In this document: piece after piece, positions 1 to 64,000 of the stretch
Layout of the letters: the number at the start of each line of letters is the position of its first letter
Numbering within the stretch: the stretch's first letter is position 1
NCBI GenBank assembly: GCA_030737835.1
Contig: CM060853.1
Coordinates: forward strand, 14,781,720 to 14,845,719
Origin: Acorus gramineus
Lineage: Eukaryota; Streptophyta; Magnoliopsida; Acorales; Acoraceae
Direction of reading: 5' to 3'
Length of the DNA: 64,000 nucleotides
Notes under the pieces: model-generated
Database searches by the model: none
What the model saw: only the letters and a program-made list of their open reading frames with translations
Told to the model about the DNA's origin: nothing
Position numbers and translations under genes: made by a program

Positions 1-563
1 CAAACAGAATACTTTGTCCGAGTTCATGCGTTTCTCGAATTGACAGCCTGTCTTTAATTTCGCTGTCCATGTGTCTATGATGCCATTTTTTTTTATGAAT
101 TTGTTCTCCTTCATTTGTAGTTTTTTGCATATATAGAAGGCTAATTATATTCTCCTGATCCAATCAACATTACTAGTTGTAGTATCCTAATTTTACAGTG
201 TTTTTGATACTCTCTATACAGAATTGTAATTATGTGATGCTCTATTGATCAAATGGAGTGATTGATGTTGAGTCACAATTGTTTCTAGACAATTGATTAT
301 GCTTATGCAAAATCAGTTTTCAAAAAATCGGTTCCAATTTGATATTACAGAACAGCTTTTACGATAAAGTTAATCGAGAGCAACTTTTATGAAAAAGCTG
401 TTATTGAAAATTGGTTCCAAACATACATATTATTTGACATCAAGAAAGGCTACTTACTCTGAATGTATGCATGCAAAATTTTTATGTGGTTGAGGTGGAG
501 TGAATTGGTTTGTATGAAGCTATGATTAATTTCTCATGATCTCCTGTTTTTGTATTCCTCCAG
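1..563 (+). other. Intron sequence upstream of the last FLZ exon
   Basis: AT-rich non-coding sequence ending in a pyrimidine-rich tract and an AG at 562-563, directly before an exon with a clear FLZ reading frame. I infer it is the last intron of that gene; its donor and the earlier exon or exons lie to the left of the window. No other coding signal is seen here. Confidence 0.6.
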
Positions 564-726
564 GGGTGATACTGCGTTTTGTAGCTTAGAGTGTCGGCAG
601 AAACAGATGAATTTCGATGAGCGAAAAGAGAAGTGCTCGCTGACATCCATCAAGAAAGAAACAACTCCAGCAACAGCGACGGGCTCTGAAGCTTCGAGCA
701 GCACTGAAACAGCTGCAGCAGCTTGA
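564..726 (+). CDS. FCS-like zinc finger (FLZ) protein, last exon (5' part outside window)
   Basis: The last exon starts after the AG at 562-563 in the middle of an arginine codon. It reads [15 protein letters not shown]..., the second half of the FLZ (formerly DUF581) zinc finger. The FCS..C motif supplies the second pair of zinc-binding cysteines and is followed by the family's basic RQKQM/DERKEK stretch. About 28 residues rich in Thr, Ser and Ala follow to a TGA at 724-726. FLZ proteins are small plant adaptor proteins that bind SnRK1 kinase subunits through this finger. The first cysteine pair and the N-terminus are outside the window, so the subgroup cannot be named. A split of the FLZ domain by an intron just before the GDTxFCS motif is usual for the family. 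The identification is firm at the domain level. Confidence 0.88.
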
Positions 727-2196
727 GTAGACCCTATAAATAGGTCTTCTACCTCTCCCTTTTATATACAGACAAGCTTATAGAAATCCCACAGCTTTTG
801 TATGGCTGGGGGTCTTCAAATGGGTATTGGGTGCTTATCGATTTCAGTTATGGATGGGAAAAAAGAAAGAAAGAAATGCCTCCTCTCTCTGTTGATATGG
901 CTCTGTGTTATTTTTTTAGCTCTGCTTTGCTAATAGATGAGAAGGTTGGGAAGTAACTGTCTCTTTCTTTATTTTCTTTTTTACTTGGAAAATGTTACAG
1001 TCTCTCTGTGTCACCAGACTGCCACAAAAAGTAAAATATATGCTCAAATGAATCAAACACATATGTGTTTTACATTTTTCATAATAGAGTTCATATTAAC
1101 ATAGTGGACTATGGAGATGACATGGTGCTTACGAATGTGAAAGGAGAGGAAGGGATTAAAAATGTTTTCAGTTTTTCTTATTTGATGAGAGGCTATATTA
1201 ACCAACCCCCCCCCCCCCCCCATTTGGGAAGTGATATTCACCTATTTAATCCTGATAGTTATACTGGAATAGATAATAATTCATGCAGAATAAGTAAATT
1301 TTTGTTTAGTTAACTATTCTGTTATTCTCATTAGGAAACATAAAGTGCAGAATTTTGTTGTTTGTCTCACCCTGGATAGGGTAAACTGTGAATAAATGGT
1401 TGATAAATGATAGATAATGAGTTATTATTTTTAAAATGTCAACTTTGCCTCTGGAATATAAGTTTTTGTTTGGCGTAGTTGATAGATATAAATTAATCAA
1501 TGATGAGTGTAATTAAATCTGGACTATCCATCTTATGTAATATTTTATGATGGCCAGATCCATTGATCGGACTGTGCAAATTAAAGAAGGTGTATCATTG
1601 GGGTTTGTATAAGTAAGTGAGAAAATGTTTTTGTAATGATAGTGATGGGTATTTTTATTCTTAGGGATAGATAAATCCTAATAAGCTATTATCATCTTTT
1701 AGTAGAATTATTATCATGCATTATCCTAGCTTATTCAGGCATAGTTATCAGGGTTTATCTACGCCAATTAAACAACAAATAAGTGCTATTCTACTGTTAT
1801 TCACCTTTTTATGTTAGGAGGGGGGGGGGGGGGGGTGTTGTGGAGGTTTCATGTACTCCTTCCATCCCCAGGAGTTTGTGATAGTGGTCTTCACTGGATT
1901 TTGATTTTGGGGAGCAGCAAAAATTACATGGCTGATTTATAAATTGCACGTATCTTCACATCAAAACAAAAAGGACCCCATCTTCAAAGGAACAATTAAA
2001 CATTAATATCATGGCTTTGTTTTGAATCTACATATTCCTTCTGGACTTCCAATTTGTGCTAGTGGATTCCTTATTTATCATGCAAGTTGTGTGTGATTGA
2101 ATTGCCTTACTGGATGTGTAAGCCAACTTAAAAGTTAAGCAACCAGTTTATTCCAGTTATAAGTACACATCTGATGATGTTATGTTCTTTTTTTAA
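727..2196. other. 3' flank of FLZ gene and intergenic DNA
   Basis: The first few hundred bases are probably the FLZ 3' UTR. After that I see no coding signal. The stretch carries a 16-C run (1206-1221) and a 16-G run (1820-1835), unusual in such AT-rich DNA. Short open frames here have no recognisable protein character. Confidence 0.5.
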
Positions 2197-3276
2197 GAGC
2201 ATCTCCAATCCTATACTTAAACTTTTATTCAAATTTAAATTTGAGTAAAAATGACTCAAAACCCTTTCCAACCATTTACCTATACCCATACCAAATTAAG
2301 CTTTTACTCAAATCTTTACCCAAATCATGGAAGACTCAAATTTTTACTCAAATTTTTAACATTTTTTTTCCCTTTATCTCCACATTTTCTTTCAATGTGA
2401 TAATTTTTTTCCTTTAACTCTACATTTAGTTGAATCATATTAGATGTCTTCTCACCCCCCAAAATTTTCACCATCTCTTGAAACAAAAAAAAAGGGGATT
2501 TTTAATTTTAAGCCCTTGTAAACATGTCTATTTAGGGATCAGTCTCTCACTTCTTCATATTTCTTTTTTAGTCCTCATATTTAACCACCTATTTGGTTTT
2601 TAGTCCCTCCGTCAAACGTCCGTCCATACACCGTTAATTTGTGAAATGCAATTTTATTTTTAAGTCTCTATAAACTATGTTATTTAGTGATCAGTCCCTG
2701 TAAACTATGTTATTTAGTGACTAGGCCCTGTAAAATATAAAAAAGGAATGGACTAATCACCAAATAACATAGTTTACAGGGACTTAAAAATGAATCACAT
2801 TTCACAAATTAACGGTGTATGGATGGATGTTTGACGGAGGGACTAAAAACCAAATAGGCGGTTTAATATGGGGACTACAAAGGAAATATGAATAAGTGAG
2901 GGACCGATCCCTAAATAGACATGTTTACAGGGACTTAAAAAAAAAATGGTCTTCTTTCTTAAGTTTTCATTTTGTTTTTTAAATTCTTATTTTTATTTCA
3001 ATAAAAAATATTATTTTTACCTTTTTTTCAAATAATTGGATGATAATAATTTTTAAATTTAAATATTTTGAAGAGAAGAAAAATTGAGTATTAAAAATGT
3101 TTGAGGAAATGACTTTAAAAATGCTTATAGGAAATAATTAGAAGAAGATGTGAATTTTTTAAAAGATTTGAATAAAACACAAAGTGATGGTTGAAGACAC
3201 ATCATATCAAATCAAGCTTTTATTCAAATTTTAAGTGAAATTTAGGTATATGTTTGAATAAGGGCTAGAGATGACC
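2197..3276. mobile_element. PIF/Harbinger-type MITE (1.08 kb) with nested foldback
   Basis: The left end reads GAGCATCTCCAATCC and the right end is its imperfect inverse (GGGCTAGAGATGACC). Both are flanked by TAA (2194-2196 and 3277-3279), the 3-bp target duplication typical of PIF/Harbinger elements. No transposase is present. The first ~220 bp recur with roughly 80% identity at 42694-42930, which shows a dispersed family. Much of the length comes from a second element inserted at about 2505-2940. Confidence 0.65.
2505..2940. mobile_element. Foldback (inverted-repeat) element nested in the MITE
   Basis: The two halves are near-perfect inverse copies of about 190 bp, from TAAGCCCTTGTAAACATG at the left to its complement at the right. 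The loop contains a ~34-bp direct repeat around AAACTATGTTATTTAGTGA (near 2667-2735). There is no open frame. The arms share the TCTCACTTCTTCATATTT region with the foldback at 32274-32515, so both belong to one family. A transcript would form a long hairpin. The exact target duplication is blurred by A/T runs. Confidence 0.7.
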
Positions 3277-12473: not shown

Positions 12474-14567
12474 AGGGGAATTGCCCAAATACCCCTTCAC
12501 CAACCCCTCTATTTTTTTTATACCCCTGAACTTTTTTTAATTTTTTCTTTACCCCTGTATCTTTGTTCAATTTTTTTTTTACCCCTATTTTTTTTAATAC
12601 CAGAACTATCTCTCATATAAGTGAAACACAAATCACATTCCCTTCTTTCCTTTTCTTCTTCTTCGTTCTCTTCCTCTTCCTTTTGTGTCCCCCTTTTTTA
12701 GGATTTGTGAGAGGGACCGGGCGATTGGCAACACCACCGACCTCACCACGCGCCTCCCCTCCTCGACCAACCCCCGCCATCTGATCTGTGTACCCCCACC
12801 ACCCACACAAACCACAACCGCCCCTCTCCGCCCCATCCCCACCACCCCCAAAATCCTCTCGATCTCCTCCCTCCTCTTCCCGTCCACCACCGTGAAATCC
12901 ACCCACTCCGCTCGACCACGACTCTAGTATCATCTGCGCCCTCCAACCCCCTGCCATGGCAGCAACAAGCTCCACCACGTTGGATCCTTTGGAGGGTCCG
13001 TCATGGCCGTCCAAATAGGGCCTTCACTGTGTCGATGTAGGCCTTCGTTGCCGTCTCTGGACACCACACCATCTCTCTCTCTCTCTCTCTGACACACACA
13101 CACGTAGCTCTCTCGATTGATTCATCGGTTGGGTGTGTTTTTGGATAAAAATTGAGTCAGAGATTTGATCTTCGTGAGTTAGTTTTTGCCTTTTTTTTGT
13201 TTGGTTTTTATGTGATGGGATGTTGGATGTTATTTCGGGTTGAAATTGAGCTAAATATCTTGTAATTGTGTGTTATGTTTTTTTGTTTGATTTCTTTGAT
13301 GGGATGTTATTGAATTTGAATTTTATTTGTTGATTATATTATAAATGGGATCTTGGATTTTTGATGTGGTTGATTTGGGTGTTTTAGACTGGATAGAGGA
13401 TGGGAGGTTGTGGGCTTATGATGCAAATAATTGATTTCCTTATATTTAAAAGGTTCAGAATTGGTAGGTTTTATAAGTGTTTATCAAGTTTTTGTAATTT
13501 TACATTTTATATTTGTACATGGTTATTACATTTCTATAAATTTGTGTAAATCTGTATCATTTATATATTTATAAATAGTTAGTTTAAATATGTAATTGGG
13601 AATTAACTGTAGCTATTACATTGGGCATTACATTATGTAATTGTGTTGTAGTTGTCATGTGAATGATAGATGATATTACATTAGTAGTTGTTACATTGGG
13701 CATTACATTTTATAATTGTATTGTAGTTTGGACATTAGTTTAATTCCATAATTTGATATATCTCTGTTTTGTAGTTTGGGCATTACATGATGTATTTAGT
13801 GTAATTGTGTTGTAGTTGCGACATTACATTATGCGAATGAAAGTTTTTGTTGTAATTAAGTAATCTTTGTAATTGGATTATTTCTTTTCTGTAAATGATG
13901 GTTTATGTTATGTAAATTGTAGTTTCTGTAATTTATTAGAATAGTTAAGTTAATAATTATATTTATGTGATTGGACGTTATAGTTTTGTACTAATTTGAT
14001 GTGCATATATCTTATGCAGAGGAGATCCATCACAGGAGTTATATAAAATATCTCAGAGACATGTTTGCCATGGTCAGACCCAACGTAGACTATCTGTTCC
14101 TTTTTAAAAAGACTCTATATACAGAACATAAACTCCCATAACTACAATATATATAATAAACATATATAATGTAACAACTACAACATAACTAACTAGGACT
14201 ATTTAATTATGGTTAATTTGAGATGCAATAATATTGTAACAATCATGTATTAAGTATTTTTCATTAATTAACAACTTGAGCAATAGGACATGTCAGAATA
14301 AATTGAGAAATTACAATGGAATACCTAATTACATACATGACTATCAATTACAGAAATGTAATATCAATTTACAAATATGTAAATGATCAATTACAGAACA
14401 TCACATTTTTTCTGTGGGGACAGTTTAGATAATAAAATGTGATGTGACAAGGGTGAGGGATAAAAAAAATATGAGACAGCTCTGCAGGGATAAATAAAAA
14501 ATAAAAAAAATCCAAGGGTACAAAAAAAATAGGGGGGCTGGTCAAGGGGTATTTGGATAATTCACCC
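12474..14567. mobile_element. Non-autonomous Mutator-like element (2.1 kb), copy A
   Basis: The left end AGGGGAATTGCCCAAATACC and the inverse of the right end (GGGTGAATTATCCAAATACC) form TIRs that continue into a C-rich/poly-T stretch. A perfect 9-bp direct repeat, TAAAATAAA, flanks the element (12465-12473, 14568-14576), the hallmark length for MULEs. The interior has a GC-rich, Pro/Arg-coding-like section (12700-13020) with no credible gene, a (CT)n/(CA)n stretch (13070-13100), and an AT-rich part with repeated TTACATTGGGCATTACA-type units. Its interior is homologous to 35446-36367, to 40655-41418 and to 63250-64000. No transposase is encoded. Confidence 0.8.
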
Positions 14568-14902
14568 TAAAATAAATTATAACGGTACGCAAAACATAGA
14601 CAAACAGAGGGTAAACTGTTAAAGTTGTGTATACATATTGAAGGGGTGCAAATAGACACCCAGCATGTATATAGTTTTTGAGTATCAAAGCGGGAGTCGG
14701 ATAAGGGAGGAGAAACATAACCCCACCACCCGACTCAATCATCCGTCCGTTTCTCGCGCCAAATCTGAACAATCCCTCGCCGTCTATTTATTTTACAGAT
14801 CCTAATCTAATCCGTTCTCACAAATGCAGTACAACCTCTCAATCTCCCTTTTCACTTGATCTCGAAAGCGAAACATTCAATTAAAAAAAACAATACTTTT
14901 CA

Positions 14903-32515: not shown

Positions 32516-32835
32516 AAAACACTTTCATATATTTTTTAAAGTTTGGGATGCTATGATTACTAGGTCTCTTTCGGAGTGAATGCTTTGAAGTTTGAATGAT
32601 ACTTATAAGTGGGAGAAGGGTTTTCTTTTTGTGGTGGAAGGGGATTGGTTGCATCCAGTTAATTTTTTTTTTAAAATTAACTTAAAATTTTAAATTAATT
32701 TTAATTCCTTCAGGTCACCCTCCCTTGAGGACCCTGCGTGTCATCTCGTCCTTGTGTCGTGATGGAAGGGGCAAATCTAAAATTGGACCGGAACAAAAAA
32801 AAAATTTGTTAACCTGAAGTAAATATTTAGAATAA

Positions 32836-33792
32836 GGGTTAAAGACATCTAAGTCCCTACAAACATGGAAAAACTCATATAAGTTCCTACTAAAATTAGG
32901 ACAGATGTACAAGTCCCTGAAAACTCAGAGAAACCCAATTATCATCCCCGAGTTAAATTTTCATCCGAACTTAACGGAATATTTTCAGAATATTCTGTCA
33001 CATATAATTGTGTTGACATTGAAGTCCTTATAAACAGTCATAAAGACAAATTAGTCCCTGCAAAAGACAAAATTACCCCTGAAAGACTTTTACATTAAAT
33101 TGTGTACACATTGCAGTCCCTGTAAACAATCATAAAGATAAATTAGTCCTTGCAAATGATAAAATTACTCTTGAAATTTTTTTACATTTAATTGGATAGA
33201 CATTACAGTCCTTATAAATAATCGTAAAGACAAATTGGTATATGTAAAATACAAAAATGCCCCTGAAGAATTTTTACATTTAATTGTGTAGAAATTGCAG
33301 TATTTTAGAGGGTATTTAATTTTTAAATTGCAATGTCTACACAATTAAATGTAAAAATCCTTCAAGGGTATTTTTGTCTTTTAGAGGGACCAATTTGTCT
33401 TTACGATTGTTTATAAGGACTGTAATGTCTATTCAATTATATGTAAAAGCCTTTCAAGGGCAATTTTGTCTTTTGCGGAGACTAATTTGTCTTTATGATT
33501 ATTTATAGGGACTACAATATATACACAATTTAATGTAAAAGTCTTTTAGGGACAATTTTATTTTTTGCAGGGACTAATTTGTCTTTATGACTGTTTATAA
33601 GGACTTCAATGTCTACACAATTATATGTGATGGAATATTCTAGGAATATTCTGTTACATTTGGATGGAAATTTAACTCAGGGATGATAATTGGGTTTTTC
33701 TGAGTTTTCAGGGACTCGTACGTCTGTCCTAATTTTAGTAGGGACTTATATGGGTTTTCTCATGTTTGTAGGGATTTAGATGTCTTTAACCC
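32836..33792. mobile_element. 957-bp foldback Mutator-type element with repeated arms
   Basis: The element starts GGGTTAAAGACATCTAA and ends with its inverse. A perfect 9-bp duplication TTAGAATAA flanks it (32827-32835, 33793-33801). The whole element is one near-palindrome folded at about 33310. Each arm contains three to four direct repeats of a ~90-bp unit (ATTGCAGTCC..TATAAACAATCATAAAGA..CAAATTAGTCC..CATTTAATTGTGTAGA). There is no open frame. A related single arm lies at 41682-41850. Confidence 0.85.
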
Positions 33793-34196
33793 TTAGAATA
33801 AATTAATTTAATTTATGGGGATAAAAAAAATATTATTTTTATTTAAATTTATATTTGATAATGTATTTTGTTATCATCATTTTTTGTGTTTTTATCCTTC
33901 ACTTTGTATTTGAATCAAATGATCTAAAATATATAATAACTTCAAAAAAAATTTAAAAAATATCAAGTCTACCATTTCTATTAATGGGTTATTAATATTG
34001 TTGAATTTGGTTTCATGAAGTTTTTTTTTTTTTTAAGGGCAGTCATAAATGTTATCTATGTTTTGCAAAATGAGGTTAAAAAATGAGGACAAAATATGTT
34101 CCATCTTTTACTTAGAATAAAATATCTCCACATTTTCTCACAAAATATAGACAATTATCCATGTTTTATCTTTTTTTCTTATGCTATATGGGATAA

Positions 34197-35445
34197 TGTG
34201 GGCGCTAAATTTTCTGGCCCCCTAAGGCGGGTCGGATCCTAGAAAGCCTAGTACCCAACCTGGCAGGTCCACGACCCAATTAGCCCAAGCCCAACAAGGC
34301 TCGACCCGCTGGCCCTCTTCAATCCGACGAACATCCCTAGTCAGTATATTTTAGATCATATTTTTTTTTGATCCCCTAAAATATATTCACTTGATTTGGA
34401 GTTATCAACATTTATTTTCCAAATCACAAAGAATATATCATAGGATCAGGTCATTCTAATCCAGTAAATCCCAATAAAATATATATATTTGTCAGGATAT
34501 GATTAACAAAATCCCCAATATATATCTTTTGCCCCCCCCCCCGAAAATCATGGATCTCTTCTCATTCGTCCGATGAGAAGCGATCGACCAGTAACCCTAG
34601 GGCAATCCTGGACCCTCTATAAATAGGGAATACTGAGAAGGTATGCACAATTCTTTTTCACAAAACCATTCTTTGGTCACCTTTACTAACTTGAGCGTTG
34701 GAGGGTCTTTCGCAGGTCTTATCCTCCATGTGTCTTCGATGTTCGAGAGTGCTCACCGACGGACGACAACTAAACGAGGCGGAGGAGAGCGAGAGCGGAC
34801 ATATTTGATTACCCGAATTTGGTAAGCTGAATTTTGTCCCTTCAGCTTGGCGCCATTTGTGGGATCCGAACAAAAAGCCTAGCTCGTCGTTATAGCTCCC
34901 AAGAGAACTCTTCCGCCCGCGTCAGTTCCAGCCAGCGCGTCAGTGGCCAACCCATCCTCTCTCCCTGGCGTGACCGAGGGCGACGACCCCAACCTCGAAG
35001 TCGTCGCTTTGCAACAGATCTGCGATGAGGCCCTGGCCCGAGCAGAACGGGCCGAGAAGCGGATCGAGGAGCTAGTCCGCATCATCGAGGTGGCGCGAGA
35101 GGAGAACGAACATCTCTGAGCCAAGCGAGACAACGTCAGTCCTCCGAACCAGTGTCGGTCCGTGCTGCCGGTGCCTAATGATCCTCGACGGACGAATGGT
35201 CGTGTCAACTAGCTAGGGAATGACCACCCACCCCGGAGCAGCCAGTGGTCTCCTCCAATGTGGTCACAAGCTCCAAGTGACCTCGCGAAGCAAACCACCT
35301 ATGGCAGAACAACGTGATGAAGGAGGTAGACCGTCGCATCCTCCACAACTTGAAGCCTCGGACTCCAGCTGACATAGTTATGCAAACGGCGCATCTCATC
35401 AACAACTCCACATTTGTCGACGAGATCGTCCGGAGGGTCCGTTAT
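34197..35445 (+). mobile_element. LTR-retrotransposon fossil (Ty3/Gypsy-like): one LTR plus start of gag region
   Basis: The candidate LTR runs from TGTGGGCGC at 34197 to TTCA at 34844 (~648 bp) and contains a TATAAATA box near 34616. Just after it lies a primer-binding-site-like TTGGCGCCATTTGTGGGA. A leader and a short gag-like stretch follow, with charged coiled-coil-like coding character. The element is broken and truncated: no protease, polymerase or second LTR is in the window. Its right end is joined directly to MULE-type sequence at about 35445. The last ~165 bp recur at 63093-63250. It is an old fossil; with one LTR it cannot be dated. Confidence 0.6.
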
Positions 35446-37150
35446 GGCCGTCCGATAGGGCCTTCTCTCTCTCTCTGACACACACTCGCAGCTCTTGTCT
35501 ATTGATACATAGGTTGGTTAGATGTGTTTTTGGATGAAAATTGAATGAAGGATTTGATTTTCATGTGTTAGTTTGTGGCTTTTCCATTTGGTTTTTATGT
35601 GATAGGATGTTGGATGTTATTTTGCGTTGAAATTGAGATAAATATCTCATCTTTTAATGGTGTGTTCTGTTTTTTTTTTAATTATTTATTTCTTTGATGG
35701 GATGTTCTTGAATTTGAATTTTATTTGTTGATTTGATTATATTTTGGATCTTGGGTTTTCAATGTGGTTGATTTGGGTGTTTTCGACTGGATAGAGGATG
35801 AGAGGTTGAGGGCTTCTGAAATCTTATTTGCTTCAACAATTGATTTCCTTATATTTAAAATGTTCAGAATTGGTAGGAATAATCAACAATTATATTCTAT
35901 AAATGTTTATCAAGTTTTATAATTTTTCAGTTTATATCAGTACATGGTTATTATATTTCTATAAATTTGTGTAAATCTCAATTATTTACATATCTGTAAA
36001 TAGTTAGTTTAATTCTGTAATTGGGAATTAATTGTAGTTTTTACATTGGGCATTAAATTTTGTAATTGTGTTGTAGTTGTCATATGAATGATGTATGATA
36101 TTACATTAGTAGTTGTTATATTGGGCATTATATCTTATAATTGTGTTATAATTTGGGCATTAGCTTAATTCTATAAACTAATATATCTTTGTTTTGTAGT
36201 TTAAGCATTACATGATATCCTTAGTGTAATTGTATTGTAGTTGCTGCATTACATTATGTGAATGATAGTTTTTGTTGTAATTAAGTATTATGTTGGTAGT
36301 TGTTGTGTTGTAGTTGTTACATCAAATACGGTCTTAATTGCGTTACCTCAAATACCTCCCGTTGGTTGCCTTGTTGGGGTTCAGAACTCCTGTGTGTGTA
36401 TCACAGGCCGACCCTGTGAACACCAACCAAAATCAAGCACGTGGATGGTGGGATCCACGTGAGTGGCATGTGAGATGCCTGCCATGTGACGCCGTCAGCC
36501 TCTTTGTTGGCGTGAAAAGCCGTGAAGAAACGGGCGTGAAGAAACTCTGTTAAGGCAGCCCATTTGTTCTCGTGACCCTCTTTGTTTTCTTTTTTTTTTT
36601 TAAAGTGGTTCTCTGTTTTGTGTTTTGTGAAAACCCTAGCCACCATTGTCAATCCCCTCTACCACACCGTCTCCCTCCACCGCTGGTTCCCACGTTGAAT
36701 CAACCACCATTGTCAGCCTCCTTCCACCGGCGATCCCTTTTTAAGGGTTTGTATAATTTTTTTAACATAGTCTTGATGAAATTTTGCTTATGTAGGGCTT
36801 TGATTCATTGATTGTTTTGTTGAATTACTTAGGGTTTTTTTCCTTCAAAAATGGGTTTCTAAGTTTTGTTGGGTTGTTTCTTGAAGAGTTTGTAAAAAAT
36901 AAAATTCAAGGGTTTGCCTTTGTTATTTTGTCTGTAGAAGTTATTTATCCTAAATGTTTTATTTTTTTTAACAAATTTGTTTTTATTTTATAATGCATCA
37001 GTTAAGAGTTTGCTTGGCTAGATTTTAAAGTGCTTGTAAGGTTTTCTATAATGTTGGATTATAAGGATTTTTTTATATTTTGATTTTATTTTTTATCCAT
37101 GCCTGTTTTTTTTTTTAACAGATTGGATCTTAGCTGAATATTTTATTAAC

Positions 37151-39492
37151 ATGGAAGGAGACAATGAGTTTGTTGAAGAATGTAGTTATAATTGTATGCC
37201 TGAAATTGGTATGGCATTCGATTCTGAAGATAGTGCCTATCAATTCTACAACACATATGCTAGATCAGTTGGATTTAGCATTCGAAGAAGTGATGCACAT
37301 AAGTCCAATGGCATACTACGTAAGCGAAAATTCTGTTGTTCTAAAGAAGGGTTCAAAGGGGTTGATAAACGAAAAGCTTTGCAGCCACAGCCCGAGACAA
37401 GAACAGGATGTGAGGCACATATGGTTATCATTTATCAATCTTCTGGTTCGTATCTTGTCAGTAAATTTGAAGAAAACCACAATCATGATCTTGTTCCAAC
37501 CCCCTTGCGCCATAATTTGAGGTCACATAGAAAAATTGGAAAAGCTCAAGCTGCTCAGGTTGATATCATAGATGGTTCGGGATTAGCACCGAAGACAGTT
37601 ATAGATTTGATGAGTGGACAAGTTGGAGGTAGAAGGAATCTTGGCTTTGTTTTAAATGATGTGAAATCTTACCTCCGCACCAAAAGAGAAACAAGAATGG
37701 AGAATGGAATTGCGGGTGCTCTTATTCAGTATTTTAAGAATAAGCAAAAGCAAAATCCTTCTTTCTTTCACTCAATGCAACTTGATACCGATGAACAAAT
37801 AACCAATGTGTTTTGGGCCGATGCTAGGTCTATTGTCGATTATGCACATTATGGAGATGTTGTTTGCTTTGATACAACCTATCGTACAAATAATCATGGA
37901 AGACCATTTGCACCATTCGTTGGGGTTAATAATCATAGGCAAACAATTATTTTTGGTGGTGCATTACTTTATGATGAGACGGCTGACTCATTTATTTGGT
38001 TGTTTGAAACTTTTCTTGAAGCAATGTCATGAAGACGTCCGAAGACTATTCTAACAGATCAGTCAGCGGCGATGGCCAAAGCTATTTCAATTGTTCTACC
38101 AGATACTCGTCATCGGCTCTGTATTTGGCACTTGACTCAAAATGCAACAAAACATCTTGGACATCTTTATGCTACTGAAGGTTTTAGAGATGACTTCTAT
38201 GCTTGTATTTATGGGTATGAGACGGAGGATGAGTTCTTAGATGCTTGGAAAGTGATGCTTGAAAAATACAATCTTGAAGGTAATAAATGGCTACAACAAA
38301 CTTTTGCTGAAAAGGAGAAATGGGCTCTAGTGTATGGGAGGGATACATTCTGTGCAGACATGAAGAGTACACAACGTAGTGAAAGTTTGAATGCTCTTCT
38401 GAGACGCTATTTGAACTCAAAGCACGATCCATTGCGTTTCTTTCAGCATTTTGATAGGGTTATGGATGACCGACGTGAAAGTGAATTGAATGCTGATTTC
38501 AAGATGATGGATACGATCCCCGTAATTCCATTTCATGCTCCGATGGTGTCATGTGTCGCATCAGTTTACACGCCAGAGATCCTTGAGTTGTTTCAAGCAG
38601 AGTATGGAAAATCTCTTAGTTGTTCTATCTACATTCATGGGGAGGTGGGACATATGATACAGTACAAAGTTCACAGATATCGTGGTAGTGAGAGGACCGT
38701 TTTTTATAATCTCTCTACTGATATGGTCACTTGTAGCTGTAAAAAATTTGAATTTATGGGTATCCAATGTTGTCATGTTTTAAAAGTGCTTGACCACAGA
38801 AACATCAAGGAGCTTCCACAACTATATATCTTGAAGAGGTGGACCAGAGATGCAAAATCTGGCGTTGTGCTTGATTCATGTTCTTCTTCAGTACAGGTTG
38901 ATCCTATATCTGAATTGGGAAGACGCTTTCAAGAATTAAGTCATGGTCTCATTCAAGTGGCATCAAAGGCGGCTGAAACACACCATTCAACAAATCTTGT
39001 AAAACGCCGCACAAATGAGATGATGTAGGAGATTGAGGAAGACTTGAGAAAATCTTCTACAACATTTGAAGATGATAACGTGCAAGATGATGATGGAGAC
39101 GATCCTAGTAACAACGAGGTCGCCAAAGGCTTTAAAAGAAGAGGAAAGAAGACTGTGGGAGGGAAACCCCAAAAAAGATGGATCGGCGGGATGGAAAGGA
39201 GATCACGAGGTCAAAGCTCCCAAACTCAACATGAACCCCATATTGCGAGTCACAGTGTTCCATTATTTCAGCCAATGGTTGGGAACTATGATAATAGTGA
39301 AGGAATGCATTCAATGACTCAATTGCTTCAGGTATATTTCATATCCCTTAATACTTTTAGAAATATTTATTAAATGGCGCATTAATATATGAATTTGTAT
39401 CACAGGCACAAGAATCTCTTTTTTATCCTACTCAAATGAGTCAATCTTCTCAAAATTTATCTGAAGAATGGAGGAGGAATACAGATTACTGA
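37151..39492 (+). pseudogene. FAR1/FHY3-like MULE transposase, two in-frame stop codons
   Basis: One frame of 755 codons runs from 37151 to 39331 and, after a short intron (39332-39405, GT..CACAG), from 39406 to a TGA at 39490-39492. The FAR1 DNA-binding zinc cluster spans residues ~25-115 (Cys62/63, Cys87, His110, His112). The MULE transposase core has CFDTTYRTN with the first catalytic Asp near 241, ILTDQSAAM with the second Asp near 302, and CIWHLTQNA. The SWIM zinc finger reads CSCKKFEFMGIQCCH. A basic/acidic tail follows. The frame is broken by TGA at 38030-38032 and TAG at 39026-39028, with no frameshift between. Transposases of this family bind TIRs and excise or insert MULEs in the nucleus; FAR1/FHY3 light-signalling factors descend from them. 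The TIR location shows this is the mobile form, not a domesticated FRS gene. Confidence 0.9.
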
Positions 39493-39560
39493 GCAGATCA
39501 CAGTTCTATGCTTATAATGAAGAATGTTTTGGTTTTTTGGGTTTTATTTAATTTGGGTGT

Positions 39561-39771
39561 CTTTGTTATGCTTGTACTGAGGAACATGTATTAAGAACTA
39601 TTTTGGATGTCTTTGTTATGCTTGTACTGAGGAACATGTATTAAGAACTATTTTGGATGTCTTTGTTATGCTTGTACTGAGGAACATGTCTTAAGAACTA
39701 TTTTGGATGTCTTTGTTATGCTTGTACTGAGGAACATGCCTTAATAACTATTTTGGATGCCTTTGTTATGT
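39561..39771. repeat. 50-bp tandem repeat, about four units, downstream of the transposase
   Basis: The unit is TTTGTTATGCTTGTACTGAG followed by GAACATGTATTAAGAACTAT and TTTGGATGTC, repeated about 4.2 times with few changes. It lies just past the transposase stop and could form its 3' UTR. Confidence 0.9.
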
Positions 39772-41681
39772 TTTCTAGATGGATAACATCTTTAGTTGGA
39801 GGCAGTTCTTTAGTGGTTACATGCTTGGATGTTATTGGCTAGATTTTTTTTTTATGGAGCTTTCAGTTATCCCTTAATTTTATTTACAAATTCTTTGAGG
39901 TTTTATTCCTTAACTGATATTTGTATAATTTTGGTTGTTGTACAGGTTTGGTTGTATTTATATCTCTGTAATGATTTTCTTTTGGTGATTATTGTTGTCT
40001 GTGTGTTAAATTATTGCTGGGTATCATTATTTGTTGAGGTTCATAGCTGCTGTAGGACAATTCATTCGTTGTATGAAAAATTCAACCCATATTGATGTAA
40101 GCTTCTGTGCAGCTTGTTTGATTTTTTTTTACCTGTATAACTATACTTATTCTCTGTTTTTGTGTATATATGTACATGTAATATATTTATATTACAAGAA
40201 GTTGGTGATTGTGGAAAGTTCTATTAAATGATGGGAATTTAAATTCAAAGCAAGTTCAGTTCATAGTTGTGAAAGTTCCAATTCCTACAAAGTTGAAATT
40301 TTCTTCATTTGATTAGATGTGATCAATGGGTAATTGTTGAATGCCTATATGCTAATAATGTAAAGACAAGAAGTTTAATTAAAATCCCATGCATATTTCA
40401 ACTCATTGGCTGTGTCCCTTCATAAAAAAAAAGAAAACAAAGAGGGTCACGAGAACAAATGGGCTGCCTTAACAGAGTTTCTTCACGCCCGTTTCTTCAC
40501 GGCTTTTCACGCGAACAAAGAGGCTGACGGCGTCACATGGCAGGCATCTCACATGCCACTCACGTGGATCTCACCATCCACGTGCTTGATTTTGGTTGGT
40601 GTTCACAGGGTCGGCCTGTGATACACACACAGGAGTTCTGAACCCGCCTTGTTGTGAGAAATGTAATATTAATAGTTTTTGTAATTGATGGTTTCAATTC
40701 TTAGTAATCTTTGTAATTGGATTTTTTTTTTTTTGGTAAATGATAATTTCTGTTATGTAAATAATAGTTTATGTTCTATAAATGATAGTTTCTATAATTT
40801 ATTAGTACAATTATGTAAGTTATAATTATATTTCTTTGATTGGGAATTACAGTTTTGTACTAATTTGATGTGTATATATTTTATGCAGAGGAGGTCCATC
40901 ACAGGAGTTACATAAAATATTTCAGAGACACATTTGCCATGGTCAGACCCAACGTAGATCATCTGTTCCTTTTTGCAAATACTCTATATATATAACATAA
41001 ACTACCATAACTACAACATGATAAACATATCCAATGTAACAACTACAACATAACTAACTAGGATTAGTTAATGATGATTAATTTGAGCTCCAACAATACT
41101 ACAATAACATGTATCAAGTGTTTTTCATTAATTAACAACTTGAGCTATACGACAAGTCTGAATAAGTTAAGAAACTATAATGTAATACCTAATTACATAA
41201 ATAAATATCAATTACAGAAATGTAATATCAATTTATATATATATAAATGATCAATTACAGAACATCACATTTTCTTTGTGGGGATAGTTTAGGTAACAAA
41301 ATGTGATGTGGCAAGGGTGGGGTAAAAAAAAAATGAGATAGCTTTGCAGGGGTAAAAAAAAGTTTAGGGGTATAAAAAAAAAAGGTTTAGGGGTCAATGG
41401 GGTATTTGGGCAATTCACAAAAAAATTGTAAATTTTTATTAGTAGATCTTCAATATAATTTAGGACGGGTTCATGAGGCCAACAATCTTAAACCTCATCA
41501 ATGTCACAGTGACTAGTTTATAAGAGACCCACTGACTGTTCTCGGCTTGTTGGCATGAAATTCAATTACCCATGTTATATCACCAATATTTTCGTGGTAA
41601 TTTGATTATTTTAAAACAACTAGCTTGCCTACAGCTTATTTGAAGTAATAAAAGATAATGTTCTTAGTTTGTTAATAAAAA

Positions 41682-63092: not shown

Positions 63093-64000
63093 ACCTCGCA
63101 AAGCAAACCTCCTATGGTAGAACAACGTGATGAAGGAGGTAGACCGTCGCATCCTCCACAACTTGAAGCCTCGGACTCCAGCTAACATAGTTATGCAAAC
63201 GGCGCATCTCATCAACAACTCCACATTTGTCGACGAGATCATCCGGAGGGTCCGTTATGGCCGTCCGATAGGCCCTTCTCTCTCTCTCTCACACACACAC
63301 TCACAGCTCTTGTCTATTGATACATTGGTTGGTTAGATGTGTTTTTGGATGAAAATTGAATGAAGGATTTGATTTTCATGTGTTAGTTTGTGCCTTTTCC
63401 ATTTGGTTTTTATGTGAAAGGATGTTGGATGTATTTTGCGTTGAAATTGAGATAAATATCGCATCTTTTAATGGTGTGTTCTGTTTTTTTGTTTGATTTC
63501 TTTGATGGGATGTTCTTGAATTTGAATTTTATTTGTTGATTTGATTATATTTGGGATCTTGGGTTTTCAATGTGGTTGATTTGGGTGTTTTTGACTGGAT
63601 AGAGGATGAGAGGTTGAGGGCTTCTGAAATCTTATTTGCTTAAACAATTGATTTCCTTATATTTAAAATGTTCAGAATTGGTAGGAATAATCAACAACTA
63701 TATTCTATAAATGTTTATCCAGTTTTATAATTTTACAGTTTATATCAGTACATGGTTATTATATTTCTATAAATTTGTGTAAATCTCAATTATTTACATA
63801 TCTGTAAATAGTTAGTTTAATTCTGTAATTGAGAATTAATTGTAGTTTTTACATTGGGCATTAAATTTTGTAATTGTGTTGTAGTTGTCATACGAATGAT
63901 ATATGATATTACATTAGTAGTTGTTATATTGGGCATTATATCTTATAATTGTGTTATAATTTGGGCATTAGTTTAATTTCATAAACTAATATATCTTTGT
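63093..64000. mobile_element. Chimeric LTR-fossil/MULE copy C (cut by window end)
   Basis: From ACCTCGCAAAGCAAACC at 63093 the sequence follows 35280 onward. It has the ~165-bp retrotransposon-derived stretch, the same junction GGAGGGTCCGTTATGGCC, the CT/CA tract, then the MULE interior up to the window edge. Identity to copy B is very high by eye, higher than to copy A. The retrotransposon part is a broken fossil. The right end lies beyond the window. Confidence 0.75.

Follow-up and report, generated by a model that had tools for sequence, protein, structure and literature searches.

The window considered here is a stretch of 64,000 nucleotides from Acorus gramineus (CM060853.1, positions 14,781,720-14,845,719 of the forward strand; positions below are window coordinates), and our subject is a Mutator-like element (MULE) of 4269 bp that it carries at 36377-40645. 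We think it quite probable that this is a recently inserted, coding-defective MULE of the Jittery-like (FAR1-type) kind, the long terminal inverted repeats (TIRs) of which were made by copying the 5' end, in inverted orientation, onto the 3' side.

The evidence for end copying comes from relatives in the same genome, which we designate by L numbers. One 5' end is common to the window element, L043, and L044 at 97-99% identity, and the three have three different 3' sides. The 3' end of L043 matches that element's own 5' end over 50 bp at 86%; in L044, the corresponding match is 67 bp at 97%, and the 3' flank is L012-like over ~110 bp (93-94%). The window element tracks L044 to element position ~4022, where ~78 bp found in L044 and L026 are missing; past this gap, it tracks both for another ~25 bp and then switches, via an A-run, into inverted 5' sequence. 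Its 3' part measures 1149 bp, versus 3110 bp in L044, and the short form appears derived because L044 has a long 3' region of which parts recur in L026, L030, L033, L034, and L012. L043 and L044 are thus close relatives that have the other end and the body in common with the window element and have no long TIR at one end, and the likeliest source of the 3' TIR is the element's own 5' end, copied there in inverted orientation in place of ~2 kb. This 222-bp end type is rare, and its inner part (positions 71-222) is present in full at three of 46 other ends read (L043_5, L044_5, and L045_3). At its 3' end, L045 likewise has inverted sequence of the 5' type, joined differently, and the ends of L031 match over 894 bp at 93%, its 5' side being only tip-level similar to other 5' ends before it joins the body.

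The starting point would be DNA breakage at the element's 3' end or close to it, e.g., during gap repair after excision. Template-switching repair, primed by the common tip sequence of ~50-67 bp, would copy ~222 bp of the 5' end inverted onto the 3' side, and the copied tract would replace ~2 kb that holds, in relatives, a convergent open reading frame (ORF) for a GRF zinc finger. The element would have been moved, most likely, by transposase from elsewhere, or have moved before the stops in its own gene arose. The insertion, the stops, the missing 3' region, the junction, and the matching of tips within elements can be seen in the sequence itself; the repair route, the order in which things happened, and the provision of transposase in trans are what we infer from it. 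TIR identity would then date the copying, not the insertion: since the 3' TIR has the look of a copy of the 5' end, near-identical TIRs are no evidence that the insertion is young. For the same reason, dating by TIR mismatches was rejected, and the original prediction, made from the sequence of the window and proposing an intact-looking young element, loses the near-identity of the TIRs as a sign of youth.

Table 1. Features of the element, its insertion site, and its longer relatives (TSD, target site duplication).
Feature	Position	Strand	Remarks
Left TSD	36368..36376	+	GCCTTGTTG, identical to right copy
5' TIR	36377..36598	+	222 bp; tip CTCCTGTG-TGTGTAT-CACAGG; same 5' end in L043, L044 (97-99%)
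Transposase coding exon	37151..39331	+	FAR1/MULE/SWIM; two interrupting stops
In-frame TGA, codon 294	38030..38032	+	in MULE catalytic domain; in 0/21 other copies
In-frame TAG, codon 626	39026..39028	+	in 0/18 other copies readable there
Predicted GT-AG intron	39332..39405	+	near gene 3' end; splicing gives 752-756-codon frames in five relatives
Last predicted coding exon	39406..39492	+	terminal TGA
Tandem repeat	39549..39773	+	50-bp unit, ~4.5 copies, downstream of predicted stop
Junction	40396..40423	+	~78 bp fewer than L044, L026; then A-run switch into inverted 5'-end sequence
3' TIR	40424..40645	-	222 bp; near-identical inverted copy of own 5' end
Right TSD	40646..40654	+	GCCTTGTTG, 9 bp
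Host repeat copy B, left part	35424..36376	+	35464-36302 matches copy A at 83%
Host repeat copy B, right part incl. right TIR	40655..41431	+	
Host family copy A, uninserted	12474..14567 (approx.)	+	112-bp TIRs at 79%; possible 9-bp TSD TAAAATAAA
GRF zinc-ribbon ORF of relatives	L026 6205-6633; L044 2463-2891; 10 further loci		convergent to transposase

The structure of the element (Table 1) agrees in most respects with what had been predicted. The outer limits at 36368-40654, the identical 9-bp TSDs, and the ~222-bp TIRs with two differences were all confirmed (two mismatches over 222 bp, 99%; the repeat finder instead reports 227 bp at 98%), as was the 3' tandem repeat. The expected full set of domains was found by Pfam, with an N-terminal FAR1 domain (PF03101, E 2.4e-25), a C-terminal SWIM domain (PF04434, E 3.5e-07), and the MULE transposase domain (PF10551) scoring above its cut-off on either side of the first stop. 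A 5' UTR intron, also proposed, is plausible by eye only. By its domains, by a 9-bp TSD whose target is single-copy in an empty paralogue, and by TIRs of 222 bp (~200 bp in Jittery and TED; 50 to 894 bp in relatives), the element fits the Jittery/FAR1 group of MULEs.

What did not hold is the single-frame, intact transposase. Our model of the gene starts at 37151 and has one intron (39332-39405) and 756 codons, and stops interrupt its frame at codons 294 and 626. The MULE profile match is cut in two by the first of them, with profile positions 1-59 before it and 64-99 after it. At the second, three of the 21 other copies have no match in the sequence examined, hence the 18 that could be read. 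Among eight modelled relatives, the frame stays open for 752-756 codons in five (L026, L027, L030, L031, and L045); a 1-bp deletion changes the end of the frame in L028, and L043 and L044 are broken otherwise. With its two premature stops, which led us to reject the view of it as intact, the window copy cannot be relied on to produce transposase. In a set of 14 copies that are full-length and alike at 98% or more, itself included, the window element has seven private changes in 2342 bp, and five of these sit in two tight clusters that include or adjoin the stops. The adjacent private changes, at 38029-38030 and 39026-39032, could reflect multi-base mutation, traces of repair, or an assembly error.

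The insertion was examined with a query of 600 bases, in which 300 bases of each flank were joined with one TSD kept. It matches C7:14960314-14960913, ~140 kb off on the same contig, over 600/600 bases at 97%. This empty paralogue (L046) has the target once, as GCATTGTTG, in uninterrupted sequence. Because the empty paralogous site carries a single target, the insertion is real and, most simply, later than the duplication of the flanks; together with the identical TSDs, the 97% empty site supports a recent insertion, as predicted. The host region 35280-36192 is duplicated at 63093-64000 within the window (96%) and at C7:14.96 Mb (97%).

The element had also been placed inside another MULE. Its flanks resemble copy A of the host family (13078-14582) at 83%, and the host is MULE-like. 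Nesting in another MULE is a reasonable reading, if an incomplete one: copy B has a matching right TIR, but a left TIR, looked for in that copy, was not found. The TSD of copy A is possible, having been read by eye in AT-rich sequence. In maize and rice, coding MULEs are described as seldom found within other transposable elements (excerpted text of PMC3903597). A palindromic repeat block of ~1 kb lies near the host element, at 32817-33813.

Genome searches scored 40 of 53 candidates for the TIR and 40 of 239 for the transposase, so that copy numbers are lower bounds. The transposase region is common to at least 14 copies at 98% or more, the window element included (98-100% alike), and five of the 14 have no private substitutions across ~2.34 kb. 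The TIR search, a check that the original prediction had itself proposed, gave at least 47 matches, most covering 38-60 bases; apart from the query, the near-full matches listed are three at 98-100% (among them the 3' TIR of the window element itself) and a further match at 91%. The family is thus multi-copy by its transposase, and few of the TIR matches are near-full.

Bodies and ends behave differently in this family. Our analysis of ends covers the group at 92-100%, the 85% and 88-89% sub-families lying outside it, and its identity bins were chosen after the first alignments, in which local matches began at 187. Identity to L045, L012, L030, L028, and L029 is 96-100% over element positions 188-3116 where aligned, except for L029 at 565-774 (91%); in the same five, it is 68-90% at positions 1-60, and coverage is 58-89% at 61-187. 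Local matches begin at 187 for L026, L027, L028, L029, L039, L041, and L045, and for L030 weakly from position 1; in L031 and L033, the drop falls near 565-579 instead. Counted together, six relatives lose identity outwards of ~187 and two others outwards of ~565, which speaks for end copying. Values for L026 are lower at 388-774, the site of its tandem repeats. A unit of ~138-142 bp (388-529 of the window element, which has one) forms tandem arrays of up to about eight copies on the 5' side of L026, L028, L029, and L041. Among transposase-bearing copies, TIR length runs from 50 to 894 bp, and in 8 of 13 elements, a count that excludes L035, the match between the tips extends over just 50-73 bp.

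Target duplications were read at both ends of 15 transposase-bearing elements (window element, L012, L026-L031, L033, L034, L036, L041, and L043-L045), with small shifts tolerated, which somewhat favours matches. Eight have an identical 9-bp TSD, L029 and L031 only after a shift of 1-2 bases at one end; the TSD is 8/9 in L027, L028, and L041 and 8 bp in L036, and none was found in L012, L034, or L045 even with such shifts. L033 (C8:19.11 Mb) and L035 (C8:18.99 Mb) have the same TSD, CCTCGATTC, which makes one segmental duplication more probable than two separate insertions. Non-autonomous relatives with similar tips, as had been foreseen, do exist (L015, L050, and L055). L050 (C4:10376237-10376981) is 745 bp long, with family tips, a perfect TSD, and TIRs of 139 bp at 99%; it is a non-autonomous relative that resembles a miniature inverted-repeat transposable element. 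The transposase copies, several perfect TSDs, and five open-frame relatives support a multi-copy, recently mobile family. The earlier interpretation thus stands for recent insertion and family mobility and fails for the element's own transposase and for TIR identity as a measure of age.

Within elements, the tips match. The tip pattern with a free 7-base spacer occurs at 50 places in the genome versus none for a reversed control pattern, and the spacer varies strongly between elements. We tested 14 transposase-bearing elements at 14 variable columns with 20000 shuffles; L012, whose 3' tip is broken, and L035, the twin of L033, were at first outside the test and then added, and L032, L037, L038, L039, L040, and L042, in which the two ends were not both read, stayed outside. 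Agreement between an element's own tips is 0.867 versus 0.474 between elements, a value reached by 0/20000 shuffles, and the spacer is identical in 9/14 own pairs versus 11/182 cross pairs. Variants of the test (with L012 and L035 added, with L044 and L045 removed, or with nine elements) each gave p of 1e-4 or less, and the seven non-autonomous elements alone, over six columns, gave p 0.003.

Tentatively, and with rather low confidence, we propose that a near-identical transposase cassette is distributed among many kinds of ends, the mirror image of the maize Mu arrangement; that a fixed tip frame, CTCCTGTG-N7-CACAGG-...-CCTGTGAACACCAA, surrounds a hypervariable spacer; and that tip matching may be continually renewed by end-onto-end copying, possibly because two matched tips suit the transposase best.

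Three other accounts of the long TIRs have to be weighed. The original prediction amounts to a FAR1 MULE that is intact and autonomous, was inserted recently, and has TIRs inherited in the ordinary way, and the perfect TSD, the 99% TIRs, the complete domains, and the recent mobility of the family all speak for it; the two in-frame stops unseen in relatives, which contradict it unless they are assembly errors, and the closest sisters, which have no 222-bp TIR at their 3' ends, make it very improbable. An ancestor might instead have had 222-bp TIRs at both ends, its sisters having lost theirs through replacement of the 3' side. The presence of the 5' type in three elements and the related 3' end of L045 agree with such an ancestor. 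We nonetheless judge it improbable, given that the long 3' region of L044 recurs in part in five other relatives and that L044 and L026 have the 78 bp that the window element lacks, which makes the window form the derived one.

The family might also consist of separate old lineages, each with an inherited TIR pair, in which the transposase region alone was homogenised by gene conversion. In many elements, both ends do differ together from the ends of other elements, end types are common to non-autonomous and transposase-bearing elements, and the bodies are 98-100% identical, down to the five copies without private substitutions. This account can coexist with end copying, but as the whole story it seems unlikely: a single 5' end with three 3' sides in the window element, L043, and L044, and tips that mostly match over so short a distance, speak against it, and copying would still be required for the window element and L045. 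End copying, our preferred explanation, faces difficulties of its own. It draws on one genome only, and direction and order are inferred from relatives within it. L045 has no TSD and so may have arisen by recombination, not transposition. The stops, both in clusters of private changes, could be assembly errors in highly repeated sequence. For the tips, the shuffle leaves relatedness between elements in place, the spacers are non-identical in 5/14 elements, and L043 has clearly mismatched tips yet a perfect TSD, so that matched tips are not strictly needed.

The 3' region absent from the window element holds a second ORF in the longer relatives. In L026, L030, L044, L034, and L033, it comprises 177 codons stop-to-stop, convergent to the transposase; from the first in-frame ATG, it encodes 143 residues with a GRF zinc ribbon and a hydrophobic C-terminus (PF06839, 35.2 bits versus a cut-off of 25.9). 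A search of 22 loci found it at full length in 12, all 12 of them stop-free, and in partial form in L014, L031, L036, and L038; it was not found in L028, L029, L041, L042, L043, or L045, the stretch examined for L041 ending before the element does. A genome search with the GRF protein (108/108 candidates scored, 81 matches) gave no match at the window element, so that the second convergent gene of a two-gene (mudrA/mudrB-like) MULE is absent from the window element and present in longer relatives. About nine of the 81 matches have unbroken 148-aa open frames. Neighbours were checked systematically for 12 of the 81: the 11 copies at 96% or more and a 90% copy at C3:10448523 each lie 0.7-2.0 kb past a convergent transposase copy. 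The ratio of nonsynonymous to synonymous substitution (dN/dS) of the GRF ORF is ~0.7-1 within the family and 0.58 against a 74% relative; that of the transposase, compared with L036-L038, is 0.33-0.45, i.e., under stronger constraint. This ORF, under weaker constraint than the transposase, is a candidate accessory gene.

Among open-licence papers on end copying, TIR rearrangement, FAR1 MULEs, and GRF in MULEs, most of them surveyed by listing alone, we did not find the case of the window element described. Jittery and FAR1 stand for one clade (PMC3903597, in part), and Jittery and TED of maize are reported, in the excerpt of PMC9569675, with TIRs of ~200 bp, a 9-bp TSD, and no mudrB homologue. 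The window element is like them in TIR length and TSD; it differs in being defective and in belonging to a family with a near-constant transposase region and varying ends, the TIRs of which span 50 to 894 bp. A Jittery sub-group of dicots and monocots has an N-terminal FAR1 domain, SWIM, and TIRs of 39-292 bp, its table, as excerpted, listing one ORF and a TSD of 8 bp or unstated (PMC6446971), whereas longer copies of the window family have the convergent GRF ORF as well. The Jittery-like Jitvine MULEs of grapevine are described with several potentially functional ORFs, and a ULP1 coding sequence lies downstream of the transposase in some Jittery-like MULEs, occurring in MULEs in either orientation (PMC2528002, in part). 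An extra ORF in the Jittery clade is therefore not new in itself; compared by description, it is a GRF zinc ribbon here and ULP1 there. Abermu, of barley and others, has an extra ORFR opposite to the transposase, of unclear origin and function (excerpt of PMC9168764); both families have an extra opposite ORF, compared again by description, and Abermu is nearer MuDR.

A parallel to the event itself is Galileo of Drosophila mojavensis, in the P superfamily, for which changes of TIR length and chimeric copies are reported, together with a proposal that TIR1 and internal sequence were copied onto TIR2 during repair (PMC3573991, in part). The same type of end-copying event is proposed here, in another superfamily and another host, and in the present family, relatives with 98-100% identical transposase regions display the replaced 3' sides directly. 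MULEs of tomato, maize, rice, and Arabidopsis can have multiple or tandem TIRs, with acquisition considered as a cause (excerpt of PMC3310237); TIRs are rearranged in both cases, in tandem there and by inverted end-for-end replacement here. In kochia, a FAR1-bearing mobile element has been linked to EPSPS duplication (PMC6808082, in part).

The window element belongs to a known kind, and what is unusual is the clarity of end turnover in its family. It cautions against dating DNA transposons from TIR identity and against judging an element intact by its ends alone. On one 5' end, the family offers a natural series, from mismatched ends through a 67-bp match to a 222-bp match, in which the birth of a long TIR is traceable at base level.

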